Assembly (NCBI GenBank): GCA_016868665.1
Contig: VGGK01000002.1
Span: forward strand, 1-64,000
Source: Chlorobiota bacterium
GTDB taxonomy: Bacteria; Bacteroidota; Chlorobiia; Chlorobiales; Chlorobiaceae
Length of the DNA: 64,000 nucleotides
Reading direction: 5' to 3'
Within the stretch, counting starts at the first letter, position 1. The number at the start of each line of letters is the position of its first letter. Below, in pieces: positions 40,266-50,529 of this stretch. The translations under genes and the position numbers were made by a program. The notes beneath the pieces are model-generated. The model was not told the DNA's origin. It searched no databases and saw only the letters and a program-made list of their open reading frames with translations.

Positions 40266-41996
40266 ATGATACTTTTTTATTATCGTTCCTGCGCTGCCCT
40301 TGCAGCGCTCCTGATAATGCTTGGTTCGTTGATTCCGATGATCGCGCATGCCTCGCCATCTTTCACCCGCGCAGAAGATACCACGGTTCCACTCCGGGTA
40401 TCGACGGGAAACGAAGAGGGCTATACCATCAAGGTGATCGCTCTGAGGACCGACAGCGGACTGTTCGTCGATATCGAGTCGTTCGCGCGCGCGCTCCGTC
40501 TCAGTTCACGGCAGGAGTCCGGGGTTCTCCTGATGGAGGAGACCGATGCATCTCCGGGAAGCAGCTGCCAGTTGAGGAGTGACAATAATTTCGCGATGTT
40601 CGTTCCGAAGGATGCCCAGCGCATGAAACGCATCGTACAGCTTCAGTCCGCCCCGGTACTCAGGGACGGACGGCTTTTCCTGCCGGTGCTTCATGCCTGC
40701 AGGCTTTTCACGCTCTGGCTCGACAAGGACGTTGTGTACGATTATTCCTCGGGCATCATGACCGCCTGGCTCTGGGGTACGCGGCTCGGCGACTCGGTGG
40801 GTTATGTCGGGTCGTTAAGGCCGGGAGAAATTCAGGCTGCCATAGAAGACAGAAAGCAAATTCCCGTCGAGCAGGGAACTGTTATCAAAGGCGTCAATGT
40901 CGAGAACAAGGCGAACGGGGCGGTTGTCATGTTCGCAGCATCGGGCAAGTCCGTCAGGGCCAGGTTGAAGAAGCCCGATGCGAACGGCAGGGCATATTTA
41001 ACGCTGCAGAATGCGTCGTGCGATGTCGATGCCCTGACGAAGCTGTTCAGCGGAGGGCTGGTGAAATCCGTTACGCCGATCTCTTCGTCCGGCGGGGAAC
41101 TGCAGTTCGCAATAGATCTCGATAAAGAAGGATACCGGATAAAGACCGTCGATTTCCAGCGTGATGAGCCGAACAACCGTTATCTCGTCTATATCATGAG
41201 CGAGGCGGATGTGAAGGATATCCGGATGAAAGAGAAGGAACAGCAGATAGCAAGCGTGCTCAACAGCGATGTCGAGAAATGGAGGCTCAATACCATTGTG
41301 CTCGATGCGGGTCACGGGGGCCACGATCCCGGAGCAATAGGCGTAAGGGGAACTCGTGAAAAGGATGTGGTGCTCAACATCGTAAGGGATCTTGGTAACC
41401 TCATTGCTCAGAAATGGCCGGATGTCAAGGTTGTTTATACGAGAAAGGACGACCGGTTCATTCCGCTTCACGAACGTGGTAAAATCGCCAACAGGAACGG
41501 TGGCAAGCTGTTCATCAGCGTGCATTGCAATGCGAATAAAAAAAATCATATAAAGGGTTCCGAAGTCTATATTCTCGGACCGCATAAAAGCAAGGACGCT
41601 CTTGAAGTGGCTATGTTCGAAAACTCCGTCATTACGAAAGAGAGCGATTACAAGGAGCGCTACAAGGGTTTTTCGGCCGAGTATCTCATCATGAGCAGCA
41701 TGGCGCAGAGCGCGTTTGCAAAACAGTCGGCCGATCTTGCCGTTGAGGTTCAGAACCGGATAGGCAGACCGGACAGCACGAACGGAAGAGGGGTGCGTCA
41801 GGCTGGCTTCATGGTACTCTGGACGCCCTCCATGCCGAGCATTCTTGTCGAAGCGGGTTATCTGTCGAATGTCGAAGAAGAGCGGGTTCTGCGCGATCGC
41901 CAGGAACAGACGAAGATCGCCTACAGAGTGTTCCAGGGTATTGAAAGCTACCGCAAGAACTACGAGCGGGAACAACTTGCAGCAATGGGTAAATAA
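40266..41996 (+). CDS. N-acetylmuramoyl-L-alanine amidase (AMIN plus Amidase_3)
   Basis: Periplasmic zinc amidase that cleaves the bond between MurNAc and the peptide stem, used in cell separation. A signal peptide (about 1-29, ending MIAHASP) precedes a copper-amine-oxidase-like/AMIN N-terminal part (to about residue 310). The Amidase_3 catalytic domain follows, with VLDAGHGGHDPGAIG, TREKDVVLNIV (zinc-ligand glutamate), FISVHCNANKK and a late SILVEAGYLSN glutamate. The 576-residue size fits AmiC-like enzymes. Confidence 0.92.
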   Translation: MILFYYRSCAALAALLIMLGSLIPMIAHASPSFTRAEDTTVPLRVSTGNEEGYTIKVIALRTDSGLFVDIESFARALRLSSRQESGVLLMEETDASPGSSCQLRSDNNFAMFVPKDAQRMKRIVQLQSAPVLRDGRLFLPVLHACRLFTLWLDKDVVYDYSSGIMTAWLWGTRLGDSVGYVGSLRPGEIQAAIEDRKQIPVEQGTVIKGVNVENKANGAVVMFAASGKSVRARLKKPDANGRAYLTLQNASCDVDALTKLFSGGLVKSVTPISSSGGELQFAIDLDKEGYRIKTVDFQRDEPNNRYLVYIMSEADVKDIRMKEKEQQIASVLNSDVEKWRLNTIVLDAGHGGHDPGAIGVRGTREKDVVLNIVRDLGNLIAQKWPDVKVVYTRKDDRFIPLHERGKIANRNGGKLFISVHCNANKKNHIKGSEVYILGPHKSKDALEVAMFENSVITKESDYKERYKGFSAEYLIMSSMAQSAFAKQSADLAVEVQNRIGRPDSTNGRGVRQAGFMVLWTPSMPSILVEAGYLSNVEEERVLRDRQEQTKIAYRVFQGIESYRKNYEREQLAAMGK

Positions 41997-42039
41997 CCGG
42001 GGCTCTATATGGATATGATGGCGCTTTTTTGTTGGATAG

Positions 42040-42071
42040 TTGTAAACCGGCACATAAATTCAGGTTGACAA
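42040..42071. promoter_or_regulatory. BirA operator upstream of the biotin operon
   Basis: TTGTAAACC (42040-42048), 14 bases, then GGTTGACAA (42063-42071) matches the known BirA operator form TTGTAAACC-N14/15-GGTTTACAA with one mismatch. It is the only such site seen in the window. It fits repression of birA-bioBFGCDA by BirA loaded with biotinyl-AMP. Confidence 0.85.
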
Positions 42072-42093
42072 CGGGCTGGCTTCGGCGTGCAAT
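42065..42093 (+). promoter_or_regulatory. Promoter of the biotin operon
   Basis: A consensus -35 box TTGACA (42065-42070) overlaps the right half of the BirA operator. A 17-base spacer leads to tgcaat (42088-42093), a four-of-six -10 match. BirA binding would cover the -35 box. Confidence 0.55.
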
Positions 42094-42126
42094 TAAGGTG
42101 TTTCCGGTTATTAAAAAGGTGATTTC

Positions 42127-43116
42127 ATGAGCGGTCTGACTTCCGGCATTCTTGCCCGTCTGCATTCGGCGGATGGCTATCTTTCCGGAGAGCGGCTTTG
42201 CCGGGAGTTCGGCATTACCAGAAGCGCAGTATGGAAGCATATCCGGCAGCTCCGCCTGAGCGGCTGCCGGATCGAGGCCGTTACCGGTTCGGGGTACAGA
42301 CTGCTCGCTCTTTCCGGTGCTCCGGTGTCGGCGGAGGTAGCACTTTTTCTGAACACCGGGTTTGCAGGGCGCATCCTTCACTACCGGATGGAGACGGAAT
42401 CGACCAATCTTGAGGCTAAACTGCTTGCGGCAGCGGGAGCTCCGGAGGGAAGCGTCGTCACGGCGGATTTCCAGAGCGCCGGAAGGGGCCGTCTCGGCAG
42501 GAGCTGGGTTTCTCCTGCAGGGGAGAACCTTTATTTTTCCGTTATTCTTCGTCCTCCGGTGGCATCGTACAGGGTTCCGCAGATAACCCTGCTTTCGGCA
42601 GCCGCGATTCATCGGGCTCTCGTCGAGGCTCTTTCCGGTATCGACGCGCGAATAAAGTGGCCGAACGATATTGTCGTCGGAGGCAAAAAACTCTGCGGTG
42701 TGCTCTGCGAAATGCAGGCCGATCCCGACACCGCGCATTTCGTTGTCGTAGGGATCGGCATTAACGTCAACCAGGGGGAGTTTCCTCCCGATCTGCTTGA
42801 CCGGGCAACCTCGCTGCGTTGTGAATCAGGTTTTTCTCTGTGCCGACCGGAGCTGCTTGCAGGAGTGCTGAACCGGTTCGAAGAGCTCTATCTGCAATGG
42901 CTCCGCGAAGATGATCTCGGGTTTATCCTGCCCTATCTTGAGCGGTATTCGCTTCTGCATGGAAGGGATGTGATTGTTGACCAGCTGACCCGGCAGATTG
43001 CAGGGACGGTGAAAGGTATTGCTCCCGGAGGGGAACTGCTGCTCGGTATGGCCGACGGCACAGTACGGCCGATATCATCCGGAGAGGCATCGCTTTCCAG
43101 TGCGTATACCATGTGA
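42127..43116 (+). CDS. birA: Bifunctional biotin-protein ligase and biotin repressor
   Basis: Activates biotin to biotinyl-AMP and attaches it to the acceptor lysine of carrier proteins. With its N-terminal winged helix it also represses the biotin genes. The HTH is visible as YLSGERLCREFGITRSAVWKHIRQLR (about residues 18-43). The catalytic glycine-rich loop GRGRLGRSW lies near 122-130, and KWPNDIVVGGKKLCGVLCE and VVVGIGINVNQ complete the active site. The C-terminal SH3-like domain is present. It is the first gene of the bio operon, 20 bp before bioB, with a matching operator upstream. Confidence 0.96.
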   Translation: MSGLTSGILARLHSADGYLSGERLCREFGITRSAVWKHIRQLRLSGCRIEAVTGSGYRLLALSGAPVSAEVALFLNTGFAGRILHYRMETESTNLEAKLLAAAGAPEGSVVTADFQSAGRGRLGRSWVSPAGENLYFSVILRPPVASYRVPQITLLSAAAIHRALVEALSGIDARIKWPNDIVVGGKKLCGVLCEMQADPDTAHFVVVGIGINVNQGEFPPDLLDRATSLRCESGFSLCRPELLAGVLNRFEELYLQWLREDDLGFILPYLERYSLLHGRDVIVDQLTRQIAGTVKGIAPGGELLLGMADGTVRPISSGEASLSSAYTM

Positions 43117-43136
43117 ACCGATTAACATAACCATTT

Positions 43137-44150
43137 ATGAGTACCATTATACATCAGGCTGTCAGCAGGGCATACCGGGTACTTGAGACCGGTGAGCCTC
43201 TTGGCCGGGAGAGCGCCCTTGAGCTTGCCGGCATTCCGGGAGATGCGGTGCTCGATCTCGCTTCCCTGGCGCATAAGGTGCGTCTTCGTTATTCAGGAGA
43301 ATCCGGAGCTCTCCATACCTGTTCCATCATGAATGCCAAATCAGGTGAGTGCGGGGAGAACTGCCGGTTCTGCGCCCAGTCGCGCCATAACAGCGCGAAG
43401 ATCGATATTTACGATCTTGCCTCCGAAGACGCGGTAGTGGAACAGGCGACGGAGACCTTTGCTCAGGGAGTGCGGCATTTCGGCATTGTGACGAGCGGAT
43501 ACGGGTACCTGAAACCGACGCCGGAATTCCGCAGGATCGTTGCCATGATCGACCGGCTGCGGCGCGAACTGCCGGGACTTAACGTCTGTGCATCGCTCGG
43601 CGTGCTCGGCGAGGAGACCGCGGCCTCGCTTGCGGAGCACGGGATTGCTCATTATAATATCAATATTCAGGTCGATCCGTCACGTTACGGAGAACTGATC
43701 GCCGATACCCATACGGTCGAAGAGCGCATCGCAACGGTCAGGCTGCTCCGCAAATACGGCATACCGGTCTGCTGCGGCGGCATAATCGGCGTTGGCGAGA
43801 GTATGACTGAACGCATCGGGATGATCTTTGCGCTTGCGGATCTTGATGTTGCGGTCATACCTCTCAACGTGCTGGTGCCGATCGACGGCACGCCGCTCGA
43901 AGCGGCTCCGGCGACCGGTCTTTCCGATATCGTCAAGACTTTCGCGATCTGCCGCCTCGTCCATCCCCGCAAAATCATAAAGTTCGCCGCGGGGCGAGAG
44001 ACCGTAATGAAGGATTTTCAGGGGCTGCTCATGCTCTCCGGAGCGAACGGTTTTCTGACCGGAGGATATCTCACAACGAGAGGCAGGGAGGTCGGCGCTG
44101 ACAGGGCGTTCGTCAGCCAACTTGCGCAGTTCGGCGGGAGGGCGTCGTAA
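43137..44150 (+). CDS. bioB: Biotin synthase
   Basis: Radical SAM enzyme that inserts sulfur into dethiobiotin. The cluster-binding CxxxCxxC is C72, C76, C79 ([12 protein letters not shown]). [21 protein letters not shown] and GGIIGVGES are family landmarks. The end of the TIM barrel reads [32 protein letters not shown]. The length of 337 residues is typical. bioF starts 2 bp after the stop. Confidence 0.97.
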
Positions 44151-44152
44151 TC

Positions 44153-45319
44153 GTGGAATTTCATGCGTTTATCCATGGCAGGCTCGATGCGCTTCGCCGT
44201 GACAACAGGCTTCGCGTGCTTCCCGATATCGGGGAACGGAGCGGAAAGAATATTTGTGTCGCTGGAGAGCCTCGCCTGAACCTGTCGTCGAACGACTATC
44301 TCGGTCTCGCTGAAGATCGTTTTCTTCGCGGTTCCTTCATTGAGGCCTGCAGGGATGAGGGATTCGCCATGACAAGTTCGTCTTCCCGACTTCTTACCGG
44401 AAACCATCGCTGGTACGATCAGCTTGAACGGGAACTTGAGCGTCTCTACGGCAGAGAGGCCGCTTTGGTCTTCAACAGCGGCTACCATGCCAACGTAGGG
44501 ATCCTTCCGGCCCTTGCCGGACGCAGCGACCTCATTCTTTCCGACAGGCTCAACCATGCAAGCATCATCGACGGAACAGGTATTTCCGGAGCGGCGCATC
44601 AGCGCTACCGACATAATGATACCGTACATCTCGAAGAGCTGCTTGAAAGAGCGAAGGGTCGTTACAGGCATACGTTCATCGTGACCGAATCGGTATTCAG
44701 CATGGATGGAGATCTTGCCGATCTCCGGAAGCTCGCGGAAATCAAGAAACGCTTCGGGGCTGTGCTGATAGTCGATGAAGCCCATGGTGCCGGCGTGTTG
44801 GGGGAGAAAGGGCTTGGACTGTGCGAGTCAACCGGAACCGTTGCCGATATCGACATCATCATCGGAACTTTCGGCAAATCCTTCGCTTCGACAGGGGCTT
44901 ATGCCGTCATGGATACCGTCCTTCGCGATTATCTGGTCAACACCATGCGCTCGTTCATCTTTACCACGGCACTGCCGCCGGCGGTACTTGCCTGGAGCCT
45001 CATGACTCTCCGGAAACAGACGGAGATGCAGGTCGAAAGGGTCCACCTGCAGCGTATTGCAGCCATGCTGCGCGGGCGGCTTGAAGAGGAGGGATTCGAG
45101 GTGCCGGGTGAGAGCCATATCGTGCCGGTCGTTACCGGGAGCAACGACAGCGCGGTCAGTCTCGCTGAAAAGCTGCGAATCGGCGGAGTGCTCGGCATGG
45201 CTGTCAGGCCTCCGACTGTTCCTGAAAACCGTGCAAGAATCCGGCTTTCCCTCAGGGCGAACCTGCAGTGGGACGATATCGGCTTTATTCCCGATATCAT
45301 AAAGGCAGGTTTGGTATGA
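44153..45319 (+). CDS. bioF: 8-amino-7-oxononanoate synthase
   Basis: PLP enzyme that condenses pimeloyl-ACP (or -CoA) with L-alanine. Counting from the GTG start, the PLP lysine is K242 in IIGTFGKSFASTGAY, and D208 sits in IVDEAHGAG. LSSNDYLGL and SSSSRLLTGNHRWYDQLE are family motifs. The 388-residue length is normal. The stop overlaps the next ATG by 4 bp (ATGA). Confidence 0.95.
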   Translation: MEFHAFIHGRLDALRRDNRLRVLPDIGERSGKNICVAGEPRLNLSSNDYLGLAEDRFLRGSFIEACRDEGFAMTSSSSRLLTGNHRWYDQLERELERLYGREAALVFNSGYHANVGILPALAGRSDLILSDRLNHASIIDGTGISGAAHQRYRHNDTVHLEELLERAKGRYRHTFIVTESVFSMDGDLADLRKLAEIKKRFGAVLIVDEAHGAGVLGEKGLGLCESTGTVADIDIIIGTFGKSFASTGAYAVMDTVLRDYLVNTMRSFIFTTALPPAVLAWSLMTLRKQTEMQVERVHLQRIAAMLRGRLEEEGFEVPGESHIVPVVTGSNDSAVSLAEKLRIGGVLGMAVRPPTVPENRARIRLSLRANLQWDDIGFIPDIIKAGLV

Positions 45320-45996
45320 TTGCCGAATGGATCATCCGGCAGGGCTTCGGAGAGGCGCTGCTTTTCTTTTCCGGCTGGGGGATGGACCGACGGATCGCGG
45401 ATTATCTTTCGCGGTATCACGCATCGCCAGCATATGACATTCTGGCGTTCCATGACTATCGCACCGGGGAGATCGATGCGACGACATACGGTGCCTTGTG
45501 TTCGTACCGCAAGCTTAACGTTGTCGCCTGGTCTTTCGGCGTCTGGTCGGCGGTCCATGCCGGGCTCCCTCCCGTTTCACATGCCGTGGCGGTGAACGGT
45601 ACGCTCTGGCCCGTCGATCGCGAAAGGGGTATCGATCCCGAGGTTTTTCAGGCTACGCTCGATACATACAACGACGGAAACCGGCTTCGGTTCAACCGCA
45701 GGATGTGCGGAGGCGGTGAGATTCTGGAGCACTTTTTTTCGGTTCAGCCCGAACGGACGGCTCTCTGCCAGCAGGAGGAACTGGCCGCATTTTCAGGGCG
45801 GCTGAAGGCTGGCGAGGGGCGGGAACGGTTCATGTACGACCACGTCATTATCGGCGGCCGGGACATGATCTTTCCCGCATCCCGGCAGTTCGTCGCATGG
45901 AAAGGATATCGGCAGACGGTGATTGCCGATATGCCGCACTACCCGTTTTTTCATCTTGCCGGTATGGAAGAGGTGCTTGCATGCGGCAGGGAATAG
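45316..45996 (+). CDS. bioG: Pimeloyl-ACP methyl ester esterase BioG
   Basis: DUF452/BioG-type alpha/beta hydrolase that removes the methyl group from pimeloyl-ACP methyl ester, ending the BioC-dependent chain-building step. The nucleophile elbow is VVAWSFGVW (S73), with LLFFSGWGMD as the start of the fold. The terminal histidine lies in MPHYPFFHLAG. The ATG overlaps the bioF stop. BioG replaces BioH here, and no bioH or bioZ is needed. It overlaps bioC by 16 bp. Confidence 0.92.
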   Translation: MIAEWIIRQGFGEALLFFSGWGMDRRIADYLSRYHASPAYDILAFHDYRTGEIDATTYGALCSYRKLNVVAWSFGVWSAVHAGLPPVSHAVAVNGTLWPVDRERGIDPEVFQATLDTYNDGNRLRFNRRMCGGGEILEHFFSVQPERTALCQQEELAAFSGRLKAGEGRERFMYDHVIIGGRDMIFPASRQFVAWKGYRQTVIADMPHYPFFHLAGMEEVLACGRE

Positions 45997-46763
45997 ACAA
46001 GCGGCTTGTTTGCGAGCGGTTTGCAAAAGCGCTCGGCTCGTATCGCGAACATGCCGTCGTTCAGCGCGAGATGGCTATCGTGCTTGCCGACATGGTCTGT
46101 GCCGCGACTCCGTCGCGCAGCTTTGGAAGGGTTTTCGAAGTAGGGGCAGGAACCGGAGCGCTGACCGGGGCTCTGCTCAGCCGTTCTGACATCGATACGT
46201 ACATTGCCAACGATATCGTCGCCGAGAGCCGATGCTACATCGCTCGCGAAGCTGCGCTTCAGGGGCATGTCCGGTTTGAATTTCTTCCGGGCGATGTCGA
46301 AACGCTCGAAGAGCTGCCCGCAGAACTCGATCTTGTTGTTTCGAATGCCACGGTGCAGTGGCTGACAGATCTCGACGGTTTTTTCAGAAAGATTGCCGGC
46401 TGTCTGAAGCCGGGAGGCATCCTTGCATTCAGCACGTTCAGCAGTCTGAACATGCTCGAAATCGCCTTGCTTGAAGAGGAGGGGCTCAGCTATCCGGAAC
46501 TTTCCGATCTGGAAGCCCTTGGCAGTCGTCATCTGGAACCGCTCGTACTGAAGGAAGAGCATCGTCGGGTGGCATTCGATTCGCCGGTTTCGGTGCTGCA
46601 TCATATCAGGAAAACAGGAGTTAACGGCATCGCCCGGCGCATCTGGACGAAAGGCGGCTACCAGCGCTTTCTTCGTCGTTACCAGGAGGAGTACGCCTGT
46701 GAAGAAGGGGTCTATCTTACCTATCATCCGGTCTACTGCTGTTTCAGGAAGCTATTGCCATGA
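45981..46763 (+). CDS. bioC: Malonyl-ACP O-methyltransferase
   Basis: SAM-dependent methyltransferase that methylates malonyl-ACP so that it can prime synthesis of the pimeloyl chain by the fatty acid machinery. It shows the SAM-binding VFEVGAGTGALTG, the IANDIVAES acidic region, LDLVVSNATVQWLTDLDGFF, and LKPGGILAFSTF. The early FAKALGSYREHAVVQ is the usual BioC opening. The start ATG at 45981 lies inside bioG. It overlaps the bioD start by 4 bp. Confidence 0.94.
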   Translation: MRQGIDKRLVCERFAKALGSYREHAVVQREMAIVLADMVCAATPSRSFGRVFEVGAGTGALTGALLSRSDIDTYIANDIVAESRCYIAREAALQGHVRFEFLPGDVETLEELPAELDLVVSNATVQWLTDLDGFFRKIAGCLKPGGILAFSTFSSLNMLEIALLEEEGLSYPELSDLEALGSRHLEPLVLKEEHRRVAFDSPVSVLHHIRKTGVNGIARRIWTKGGYQRFLRRYQEEYACEEGVYLTYHPVYCCFRKLLP

Positions 46764-47446
46764 AAGGAAAAGTAATTGCGGTTTCCGGCATCGACACAGG
46801 AACGGGGAAAACCGTTGCGACCGGCCTGCTTGCAAGGGCCCTGCTCGATCGGGGGTTACGGGTCATAACCCAGAAGCTCGTGCAGACCGGATGTTCCGGA
46901 AGGATTGCCGAAGACATCGTCGAGCACAGACGGCTCATGGGCATCGGACTGATGCCGGAAGACATTGACGGGATAACTTCTCCCTATGTATTCGCTTATC
47001 CGGCATCCCCACATCTCGCGGCAAGACTGGAGAGCTGCACAATAGACCCGATAGCCATCAGACGAGCAACCTTCAGGCTCCAGCAGAGCTATGGCACCAT
47101 TCTGCTCGAAGGTGCGGGAGGGCTGCTGGTGCCCCTCGAAGGAGACCTGCTGCTTGCAGATTATATCCGCGATGCCGGTTACCCGCTGCTGCTGGTGACA
47201 TCCTCGCGACTCGGCAGCATCAATCATACCCTGCTTTCCATCGAAGCCTGTCTGAAGCGGGGAATTTCACTCAAGGGGATCGTTTTCAACCGGTTCAGGG
47301 AAGCCGACCGGACGATCGGAGATGATGCCTTCGGGACGATTCTCAATTTTCTTAAACGCTACGGTATTTCCGCACCGATAGCCACGCTTGACGAATACGG
47401 GCTTGAAGCCGGCTCGGCAGAGATGTTCGGATTTGCAGGCGACTGA
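46760..47446 (+). CDS. bioD: Dethiobiotin synthetase
   Basis: ATP-dependent carboxylase that closes the ureido ring of dethiobiotin. The P-loop is [14 protein letters not shown] (residues 7-20). [18 protein letters not shown] holds the substrate-binding part, followed by [12 protein letters not shown] and [18 protein letters not shown]. At 228 residues it is complete. It is coupled to bioC and followed after 23 bp by bioA. Confidence 0.95.
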
Positions 47447-47469
47447 AGAACCAGAGACCATTTCATTGC

Positions 47470-48759
47470 ATGAAAACGATCGATCTCGATTTCGACCGCG
47501 CCCATATCTGGCACCCTTATACTTCGATTACCGGGCCATTGCCGGTCTATCCGGTAAAAGGCGCCCGCGGGGTGCATATCGAACTTGAAGACGGACGCAA
47601 GCTCGTGGACGGCATGTCATCCTGGTGGGCTGCAATCCACGGGTACAACCATCCCGAACTCAATCGCGCGGCGCGCGAGCAGCTCGAAAGCATGAGCCAC
47701 GTTATGTTCGGAGGTCTTACCCATCAACCAGCGGTCACGCTGGCCAGAGAACTTCTGGGGATTACCCCTGAACCGCTTGACAGGGTGTTTTTCTGCGATT
47801 CCGGATCGGTAGCGGTGGAGGTTGCCCTGAAAATGGCGATCCAATACTGGGACGGACATGGCAATCCCCGGAAGAAGCGGATGCTGACCGTTCGTTCGGG
47901 TTATCACGGCGATACATTCGGCGCCATGTCGGTCTGCGATCCTGAAACAGGCATGCACCACCTTTTCCGGGGTATTCTACCTGAACAGTACTTTGCCGAA
48001 GCCCCGCAGTGCGGTTTTTCCGATATTTGCAGTGAAGAGCATATCGCCGATCTGCGTCTGAAGCTCGAACGACATGCGGACGAACTTGCCGCCGTGATCA
48101 TCGAACCTGTGGTACAGGGCGCCGGAGGCATGCGGTTTTATTCTCCGCACTACCTGAATCGGCTGCGCCAGCTTTGCGACCTGTATGGCGTGCTGCTGAT
48201 TTTCGACGAAATCGCAACCGGTTTCGGGCGTACGGGAAAACTCTTCGCGCTCGAACATGCCGGGGTTGTGCCTGATATCCTCTGTCTCGGCAAGGCGCTG
48301 ACCGGCGGGTACATGACTCTTGCCGCGACGCTTGCTACTGCAGATGTTGCCGAAAAGGTCTGTTCCGGTGAGGCCGGGGCGTTCATGCATGGCCCGACCT
48401 TCATGGCCAATCCTCTCGCTTGTGCCGTTGCCGTTGCAAGCCTCCGGCTTCTGCTCGGATCGGAATGGCAGGATACGGTGCTTCGCATCGAGCGGCAGCT
48501 GCAGGAGGGGCTCGAACCCTGCCGGAAGTTCGACGGTGTTGCCGATGTCCGCGTGCTTGGCGCTATAGGGGTTGTGGAGCTGAAACGTCCTGTCGATATG
48601 GGGGAAATCCAGAAACGATTCGTCGAAAAAGGGGTCTGGGTACGTCCTTTCGGCAGGCTGGTCTACCTGATGCCGCCCTTCATCATCGGCACGGGCGATC
48701 TTGAGCTCCTGACAACCGCTGTCTGCGATATTGCGGGGGAATACGGTCCACATTTTTGA
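47470..48759 (+). CDS. bioA: Adenosylmethionine-8-amino-7-oxononanoate aminotransferase
   Basis: PLP transaminase using SAM as amino donor to make 7,8-diaminopelargonate. Key features are the N-terminal IWHPYTSI (SAM/substrate), [11 protein letters not shown], and [17 protein letters not shown]246 is in [13 protein letters not shown] and the Schiff-base lysine K275 in [11 protein letters not shown]. It is the final gene of the operon and of normal length. A 66-bp gap separates it from the acyl-CoA ligase, which may have its own promoter. Confidence 0.96.
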
Positions 48760-48825
48760 TTTATCCCTGCAGAGTGCGTAAACTGAGATTTTTATGCTGT
48801 TTCACCAACGCAAGACGCAATTGTC

Positions 48826-50529
48826 ATGACCATTGCCAGACCCTGGATCCATCATTACGATAAAGGAGTTCCCCATACGCTTGAGCCCTATCCGGAACAC
48901 TCGCTTGTCGATATCGTGCGCAAGAGGGCATCGGAACATCCGGAGACGCCGGCTATGCATTTCAAGGGCCGGGAGCTCTCCTGCGGGTTGATAGAGAGGG
49001 AGAGCAATGCTCTTGCCGAATCGCTCAAAGAACTTGGCGTTGCGTCCGGCGACAGAGTGGCAATGCTTATGCCCAATTCTCCGCAGATGATTATCGGCGA
49101 ACTCGCTGTCTGGAAAACAGGCGCGATCGTCGTGCCGCTGAACCCGCTCTATACGGAAAACGAGCTGGCATACGCGCTCAACGAATGCGGGGCGGAAACC
49201 GTTATCGTGCTCAGCGCTTTTTACGGCAAGATCAAAGCGGTCAGTCCGGATACCCGACTCAGAAGGGTGATTGTTTCGAGCATCAAGGAGTATCTGCCTC
49301 CTCTGAAAAACCTGCTGTTCACATTGCTGAAGGAAAAGAAGGACGGTCATCGCATCGAGCTGCAGAAAGGAGATTTTCAGCTGCAGGATCTTGTTCGGCG
49401 GCATGTCGGAGCAGGAGCCCGGCCAATGCCTGTCAGCCATGAGGCTCCGGCGCTTTTCCTTTTTTCCGGCGGTACGACCGGAAATCCGAAATGCGCCGTC
49501 AGCACCCACAGCAGCCTTGTCATATCGGGCATGCAGATTGCGGCATGGTTCAGCGTGATCCTCGAAAAGGGGAAAGATTCCATTATTCTCAATATGCCGC
49601 TGTTCCACGTCTATGGTCAGGCCGGAATCTTGCCGGCTGCCCTGATGGGTGGATACCCTCTTGTTCTGATACCCAACCCTCGCGATCTCGACGACCTGCT
49701 GCACTCGATCCGAACTCTTCGACCTGCCGTTCTTCCCGGCGTTCCGACGCTCTTTACCGCGCTGCTCAACCATCCGGTTGTGAAGAAGCAGCGGGGAGTC
49801 ATGCAATCCATCAAGCTTTGCGTCTCGGGAGCCGCCCCGCTCATGCAGGAGACCAAGCGCAGTTTCGAAGAGTTGACAGGAGGAAGGATCATCGACGCTT
49901 ACAGCCTTACCGAAACCACTCTCGCTTCGACCTTCACGCCCATTCTCGGGACCTATAAGCCGGGTTCGGTCGGAATTCCCGTCCCCGATGTCGAGGTTCG
50001 TATCGTCGATCAGGATACCGGAGTCGGGACTCTTGGTTCCGGAGAGGTCGGCGAGGTGCTCATGCGCGCACCCCAGCTTATGAAAGAGTACTGGCAGAAT
50101 CCTGAGGAGACTGCTCTTGTCTTACGGGATGGATGGCTGTATACGGGAGATCTCGGTTATCTCGACGAGGATGGCTATCTTTTTATTGTCGATCGCAAAA
50201 AAGATGTCATCAAACCTGGCGGTTTCCAGGTATGGCCCAGAGATGTCGAAGAGGTGATTGCCCGCCATCCCGCCGTGCAGGAGGTAAGCGTTGCCGGAGT
50301 GCCCGATGCGTACAAGGTTGAGGCGGTCAAGGCCTGGGTCGTGCTGCGCTCGGGTTATACGCTCGCTGCAGATGAACTCTGCGACTATTGCCGAAAGGAT
50401 CTTGCCGCCTACAAGATTCCCCGGCACGTTGAATTCATCGAAGCGCTTCCGAAATCAACGGTAGGCAAAGTGCTCCGCAGAAAACTCGTCGAGGAGCACT
50501 GCAAGAAGGCCGGGACAAAAGGGAAATGA
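48826..50529 (+). CDS. Long-chain acyl-CoA ligase (AMP-forming)
   Basis: Adenylating enzyme of the ANL family that activates a fatty acid to its CoA thioester. ATP-binding is shown by FLFSGGTTGNPKCAVSTH (P-loop-like region), then AYSLTETTLAST and GWLYTGDLGYLDEDGYLFIVDRKKDVIKPGGFQVWPRDVEE (hinge). The catalytic lysine is in PKSTVGKVLRRKLVEE. The 567-residue length fits FadD. It overlaps the following methyltransferase gene by 4 bp. Confidence 0.92.
   Translation: MTIARPWIHHYDKGVPHTLEPYPEHSLVDIVRKRASEHPETPAMHFKGRELSCGLIERESNALAESLKELGVASGDRVAMLMPNSPQMIIGELAVWKTGAIVVPLNPLYTENELAYALNECGAETVIVLSAFYGKIKAVSPDTRLRRVIVSSIKEYLPPLKNLLFTLLKEKKDGHRIELQKGDFQLQDLVRRHVGAGARPMPVSHEAPALFLFSGGTTGNPKCAVSTHSSLVISGMQIAAWFSVILEKGKDSIILNMPLFHVYGQAGILPAALMGGYPLVLIPNPRDLDDLLHSIRTLRPAVLPGVPTLFTALLNHPVVKKQRGVMQSIKLCVSGAAPLMQETKRSFEELTGGRIIDAYSLTETTLASTFTPILGTYKPGSVGIPVPDVEVRIVDQDTGVGTLGSGEVGEVLMRAPQLMKEYWQNPEETALVLRDGWLYTGDLGYLDEDGYLFIVDRKKDVIKPGGFQVWPRDVEEVIARHPAVQEVSVAGVPDAYKVEAVKAWVVLRSGYTLAADELCDYCRKDLAAYKIPRHVEFIEALPKSTVGKVLRRKLVEEHCKKAGTKGK

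Follow-up and report, generated by a model that had tools for sequence, protein, structure and literature searches.

A predicted BirA operator ahead of birA-bioBFGCDA in Chlorobiaceae, with a conserved promoter-like element between its arms

Described BirA operators and the site ahead of birA

In Escherichia coli the biotin operator bioO overlaps promoters and sits ahead of biotin genes, between the diverging bioA and bioB, while birA is located away from it; its half-sites, TTGTAAACC and GGTTTACAA, are separated by a spacer of 16. The same half-sites make up the BirA consensus given by PMC545781, TTGTAAACC-[N14/15]-GGTTTACAA, and for the deltaproteobacteria Geobacter and Desulfuromonas Table 1 of that paper prints the variants TTGTcAACC and GGTTgACAA with N14. 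According to the excerpted text of PMC545781, birA lies apart and is unregulated in deltaproteobacteria outside Desulfovibrio. In Desulfovibrio itself birA was predicted to be autoregulated through a site that also serves the bio operon (excerpts of PMC545781 and PMC5343134); a 2016 survey of Proteobacteria, as excerpted, finds autoregulated birA only in Desulfovibrionales (PMC5343134). Predicted autoregulation of BirA is already known, and it is not common.

The locus considered here lies in a stretch of 64 000 nucleotides from a member of Chlorobiaceae (the window). As in Desulfovibrio, one site is shared by birA and the bio operon; however, the two diverge from the site in Desulfovibrio and are co-directional in the window, and the D. 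vulgaris site is printed with N15 (excerpts of PMC545781 and PMC5343134) whereas the window has N14. The spacer is also shorter than the one in E. coli, and, in contrast to the other deltaproteobacteria, the window has birA as the first gene downstream of the site. What follows is a family-wide, alignment-backed prediction of a biotin switch in green sulfur bacteria, with the bifunctional repressor in its own operon; since autoregulation in Proteobacteria appears limited to Desulfovibrionales in the excerpted survey (PMC5343134), the Chlorobiaceae case would be a useful comparison for how autorepression alters the biotin response. Titles and abstract starts among the matches listed from the open-licence literature included none on a birA-bio operon in Chlorobi.

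The predicted operator and the genes behind it are the following:

42040..42048, + strand: left BirA half-site TTGTAAACC (sequence, pattern scan, alignment of relatives)
42063..42071, + strand: right BirA half-site GGTTGACAA, which includes TTGACA at 42065-42070 (sequence, alignment)
42117..42122, + strand: putative Shine-Dalgarno-like AGGTGA ahead of birA (read from the sequence)
42127..43116, + strand: birA, bifunctional biotin-protein ligase and repressor (HTH_11, BPL and BPL_C domains)
43137..44150, + strand: bioB, biotin synthase (TIGR00433 above cut-off)
44153..45319, + strand: bioF, 8-amino-7-oxononanoate synthase (TIGR00858, 407 bits, slightly below the cut-off of 426)
45316..45996, + strand: bioG, pimeloyl-ACP methyl esterase (PF04301 above cut-off; 45316 is a probable start, the ORF as listed starting at 45268)
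45897..46763, + strand: bioC (TIGR02072 above cut-off; ORF as listed)
46760..47446, + strand: bioD (TIGR00347 above cut-off)
47470..48759, + strand: bioA (TIGR00508 above cut-off)

The site at 42040-42071 reads TTGTAAACC GGCACATAAATTCA GGTTGACAA, that is, TTGTAAACC-N14-GGTTGACAA; it is a palindrome with an N14 spacer, one base off the consensus printed in PMC545781, and its arms mirror each other perfectly except for one base. The relaxed pattern TTGTNAAC-N12-18-GTTNACAA had one match in the window and none in 100 dinucleotide shuffles, and TTGTNAAC-N13-17-GTTNACAA had a single match across the whole 2.38-Mb genome. With up to three mismatches allowed, six places in the genome matched, against five for a reversed control pattern. 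The five extra places carried 2-3 mismatches each and, being no better than the control, were rejected as further BirA targets and regarded as background; the genome thus has one credible BirA site. We consider the predicted operator in front of birA-bioBFGCDA, judged from the DNA and its alignment, to be real.

In the window's BirA the N-terminal HTH (PF08279, residues 8-58) scored 51.3 bits against a cut-off of 25, and both the ligase core (PF03099) and the C-terminal domain (PF02237) were above the Pfam cut-offs. Among NCBIfam models, the ligase-domain model TIGR00121 was above its cut-off, the repressor-domain model TIGR00122 scored 45.6 (below its cut-off of 70) and the full-length BirA models matched below theirs. 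The protein also matched solved BirA structures, best 3v7c (E 9e-35), and 1bia (E 2e-31). As judged from its HTH, ligase core and C-terminal domain, it fits Group II, the bifunctional biotin protein ligases. The genes birA-bioBFGCDA, tightly spaced on the same strand and conserved in order behind the operator, would share one transcript. The bioG and bioC ORFs as listed share 100 bases (45897-45996); bioC likely starts at a later ATG. An acyl-CoA ligase gene 3′ of bioA (48826-50529), matched in 61 of 80 relatives with some of the fetched stretches ending sooner, may be a further member of the operon.

Conservation of the operator in Chlorobiaceae

A BirA match was found in 81 of the 86 Chlorobiaceae genomes searched, the window's genome counted; the 80 others are the relatives referred to above, and the region around the best match was taken from each. 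The order amiC-birA-bioBFGCDA holds across these loci, save for six ended early by the contig and two with no amiC match (L113 and L135). Two loci have in-frame TAA codons inside the BirA match: L117 (G117:C3) and L115 (G218:C470).

We scanned each locus from 400 bases upstream of birA to 30 bases inside it, allowing spacers of 13-16 (ties going to 14) and scoring position 5 of each arm leniently, with three bases permitted. In 79 of the 80 relatives an operator precedes birA with a score of 16-18 out of 18, the best spacer being 14 in each; in a shuffled control (five shuffles per locus, 81 loci) none of 405 regions reached 16. The exception, L151, is explained by its contig, which starts 132 bases before birA: in its nearest relatives, L156 and L158, the site ends 113 bases before birA, so that a site placed likewise would run off the contig. 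Identity to the window's BirA drops to 52% among the relatives. The proposal of one site ahead of birA and the entire biotin operon, to be sought in other Chlorobi, is supported by this conservation of gene order and operator.

Candidate promoter elements at the operator

The window and 79 loci were aligned on the operator, and 61 nonredundant loci were kept (<80% identity over a 92-base stretch). Two blocks are conserved besides the arms: one, TTGCAAAG, abuts the left arm on its 5′ side, and the other, TA[AC]ATTC, occupies operator positions 16-22 within the spacer. Counted column by column, positions -7, -6 and -5 are T, T and G in 60, 59 and 55 of the 61 loci; operator columns 16, 17 and 19-21 are conserved and asymmetric, though they lie outside both half-sites. 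A run of T at -16 to -11 is likewise conserved; downstream of operator position 34 conservation stays within 0.25 bits in every column. A gap of 17 bases, the distance expected of -35 and -10 boxes, separates the family hexamers TTGCAA and TAMATT. Their counterparts in the window are:

42032..42037, + strand: candidate -35 hexamer TTGGAT (family consensus TTGCAA), two bases before the operator (sequence and operator-anchored alignment)
42055..42060, + strand: candidate -10 hexamer TAAATT (family TAAATT/TACATT) inside the N14 spacer, 17 bases past the -35

The TA[AC]ATTC block is asymmetric, lies on the sense strand and keeps a fixed orientation relative to birA. One would expect this of a promoter but not of a repressor that reads a palindrome. 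We also considered a palindrome extended past the arms (as TTGCAAAG...CTTTGCAA in some loci) and rejected it: at flank positions 1-8 and 10 the mirror matches came close to what column composition predicts, and position 9 exceeded it, with 31 observed versus 20.3 expected of 80.

A promoter test requiring TTG, at least 3/6 matches in the -35, at least 4/6 in the -10, and A and T at -10 positions 2 and 6 was passed by 48 of the 61 nonredundant loci with the -35 at -7 and a spacing of 17, the top of 429 combinations of offset and spacing. A simpler test (TTG, 17 bases, TA...T at the conserved geometry) was passed by 67 of all 80 loci. The window's own hexamers match the consensus at 3/6 (TTGGAT) and 4/6 (TAAATT) positions only, which is why a sigma-70 scan of 41000-50000 listed four sites, none of them at the operator. 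Just upstream of the site a hairpin with the T-run could form: the 40-base folding energy is -8 kcal/mol or lower in 50 of 80 loci and a weak -4.9 in the window, figures that stand without a shuffled control. The hairpin and T-run suggest that amiC transcription stops before the operator in many relatives.

The initial annotation had the operator built around a -35 box, with BirA blocking a promoter whose -35 is TTGACA at 42065-42070 and whose -10 lies near 42088-42093. We regard this arrangement as very unlikely. The departure from consensus does give a perfect TTGACA, exact in the window and present in the right arm in 33 of 80 loci, and the mean number of matches to the 12 consensus bases is as high there (7.07-7.26) as at the conserved offset (7.20), a consequence of the right arm's own likeness to TTGACA. 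Only when a -10 is demanded do the offsets come apart. At 17-base spacing the window offers TGCAAT (42088-42093), a 4/6 match lacking A at position 2, and none of the corresponding columns (48-53) exceeds 0.09 bits across the 61 nonredundant loci. The promoter test at this offset was passed by 2, 0 and 2 of 61 loci at spacings of 16, 17 and 18; of the 33 loci with TTGACA, an acceptable -10 at 16-18 bases is present in only three, which do not include the window. The hexamer is there, but a role as -35 box has no conserved -10 to go with it, and the conserved geometry lies elsewhere.

The G by which GGTTGACAA differs from GGTTTACAA argues in the same direction. It is found in 36 of the 80 right arms, whereas its mirror image, which cannot act as a -35 for the birA-bio operon, is commoner, occurring in 54 of 80 left arms; Table 1 of PMC545781 shows the same substitutions as lower-case letters in sites from Geobacter and Desulfuromonas. 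Judging by these counts, the right-arm G is a common symmetric variant of the half-site. Moreover, in 13 of 80 loci (six of them with TTGACA) the birA start codon is 9-27 bases past the operator, too near for the promoter first proposed: its transcript would there begin at or inside birA. Promoter prediction can be misled by a TTGACA within one arm of a palindrome.

One could also imagine tandem promoters, with a weaker start from TTGACA in addition to that of the conserved promoter, so that two starts would be under one operator. Both -35-like hexamers are indeed present in the window; with the second -10 not conserved, we give this combination a slightly smaller chance still.

The TTG/TA...T geometry is missing from 13 of the 80 loci, in L082 at the -35 and in the other 12 at the -10. 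In L082, the window's nearest relative, the -35 reads TAGGAT and the -10 is normal; L110, a separate locus, keeps the operator and lacks the -10. The remaining 11 (L088, L089, L090, L094, L097, L100, L105, L108, L116, L121 and L134) form a group with tree support of 83/88, below the starred level of the tree tool, and keep the operator without a TAMATT -10, although L105 (TATAAG) and L134 (TTAATT) come near one. The right arm contains TTGACA in 10 of these 11 versus 23 of the 69 other loci. The best hexamers 16-18 bases downstream reach 4/6 in three of the group (L094, L097 and L108), and no convincing promoter was found at the operator region in the 11. TATATT is common just 5′ of the left arm in this group; no -35 was seen for it. 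One could speculate that in these loci the promoter shifted its position while the operator stayed in place, and that the geometry of the initial annotation, wrong for the window, works there; we hold this to be unlikely. If true, the group would represent natural turnover of a promoter under a constant repressor site.

Proposed switch and its wider distribution

The reading that we prefer, and consider very probable, is an ordinary BirA operator controlling one sigma-70-type promoter for birA-bioBFGCDA, with the -10 between the arms. The -35/-10 spacer would contain the left half-site, the N14 would contain the -10, and the expected transcription start, at about 42067, would fall under the right half-site. 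With biotin plentiful, BirA would make biotinyl-AMP, dimerise and bind both arms; the bound dimer would cover the -10 and the start site and block RNA polymerase, so that less BirA and less of the biotin enzymes would be made. As carboxylases use up biotinyl-AMP, the block would be lifted. BirA binding, the biotin response and the shared transcript are what we infer from what is known of BirA, and use of the conserved promoter is a prediction; for Bacillus subtilis BirA, operator binding requires both biotin and ATP, as given in excerpts of PMC4016012.

That the site is a remnant, with BirA a ligase only and the operon constitutive, is extremely unlikely: TIGR00122 is below its cut-off, but HTH_11 is above its own in the window's BirA, 79 of 80 relatives retain both arms and their 14-base spacing even as BirA identity drops to 52%, and 12 order-level relatives have neither a repressor-domain match nor more than a weak BioB.

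Those 12 genomes (L167-L178) belong to Chlorobiales outside Chlorobiaceae. A ligase match was found in 10 of them; BirA residues 1-75 were not aligned in any of the 10, a result in which a diverged HTH could be missed. BioB gave one weak match in the 12 (22% identity, E 3e-5). The repressor domain and the biotin operon seem to go together in Chlorobiaceae, and, from the 12 order-level genomes, the biotin pathway and the repressor look as if they were gained or lost together.

Phylum-wide, the strict pattern matched in 39 of 198 genomes. Matches outside Chlorobiaceae (14 of 154 versus 32 of 154 for the reversed control, by table count) were set aside.

The distant BirA loci L008-L022 were also scanned for BirA-like sites. 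Three candidates with a score of 15, located inside, after or 2.5 kb before birA, were rejected. A fourth, in the spirochaete Candidatus Marispirochaeta associata (L021, 7947-7978), scored 17 of 18 with N14 and ends 22 bases before the matched stretch of birA; no bio gene was matched near it. From the position of this site, birA may be autoregulated in the spirochaete too.
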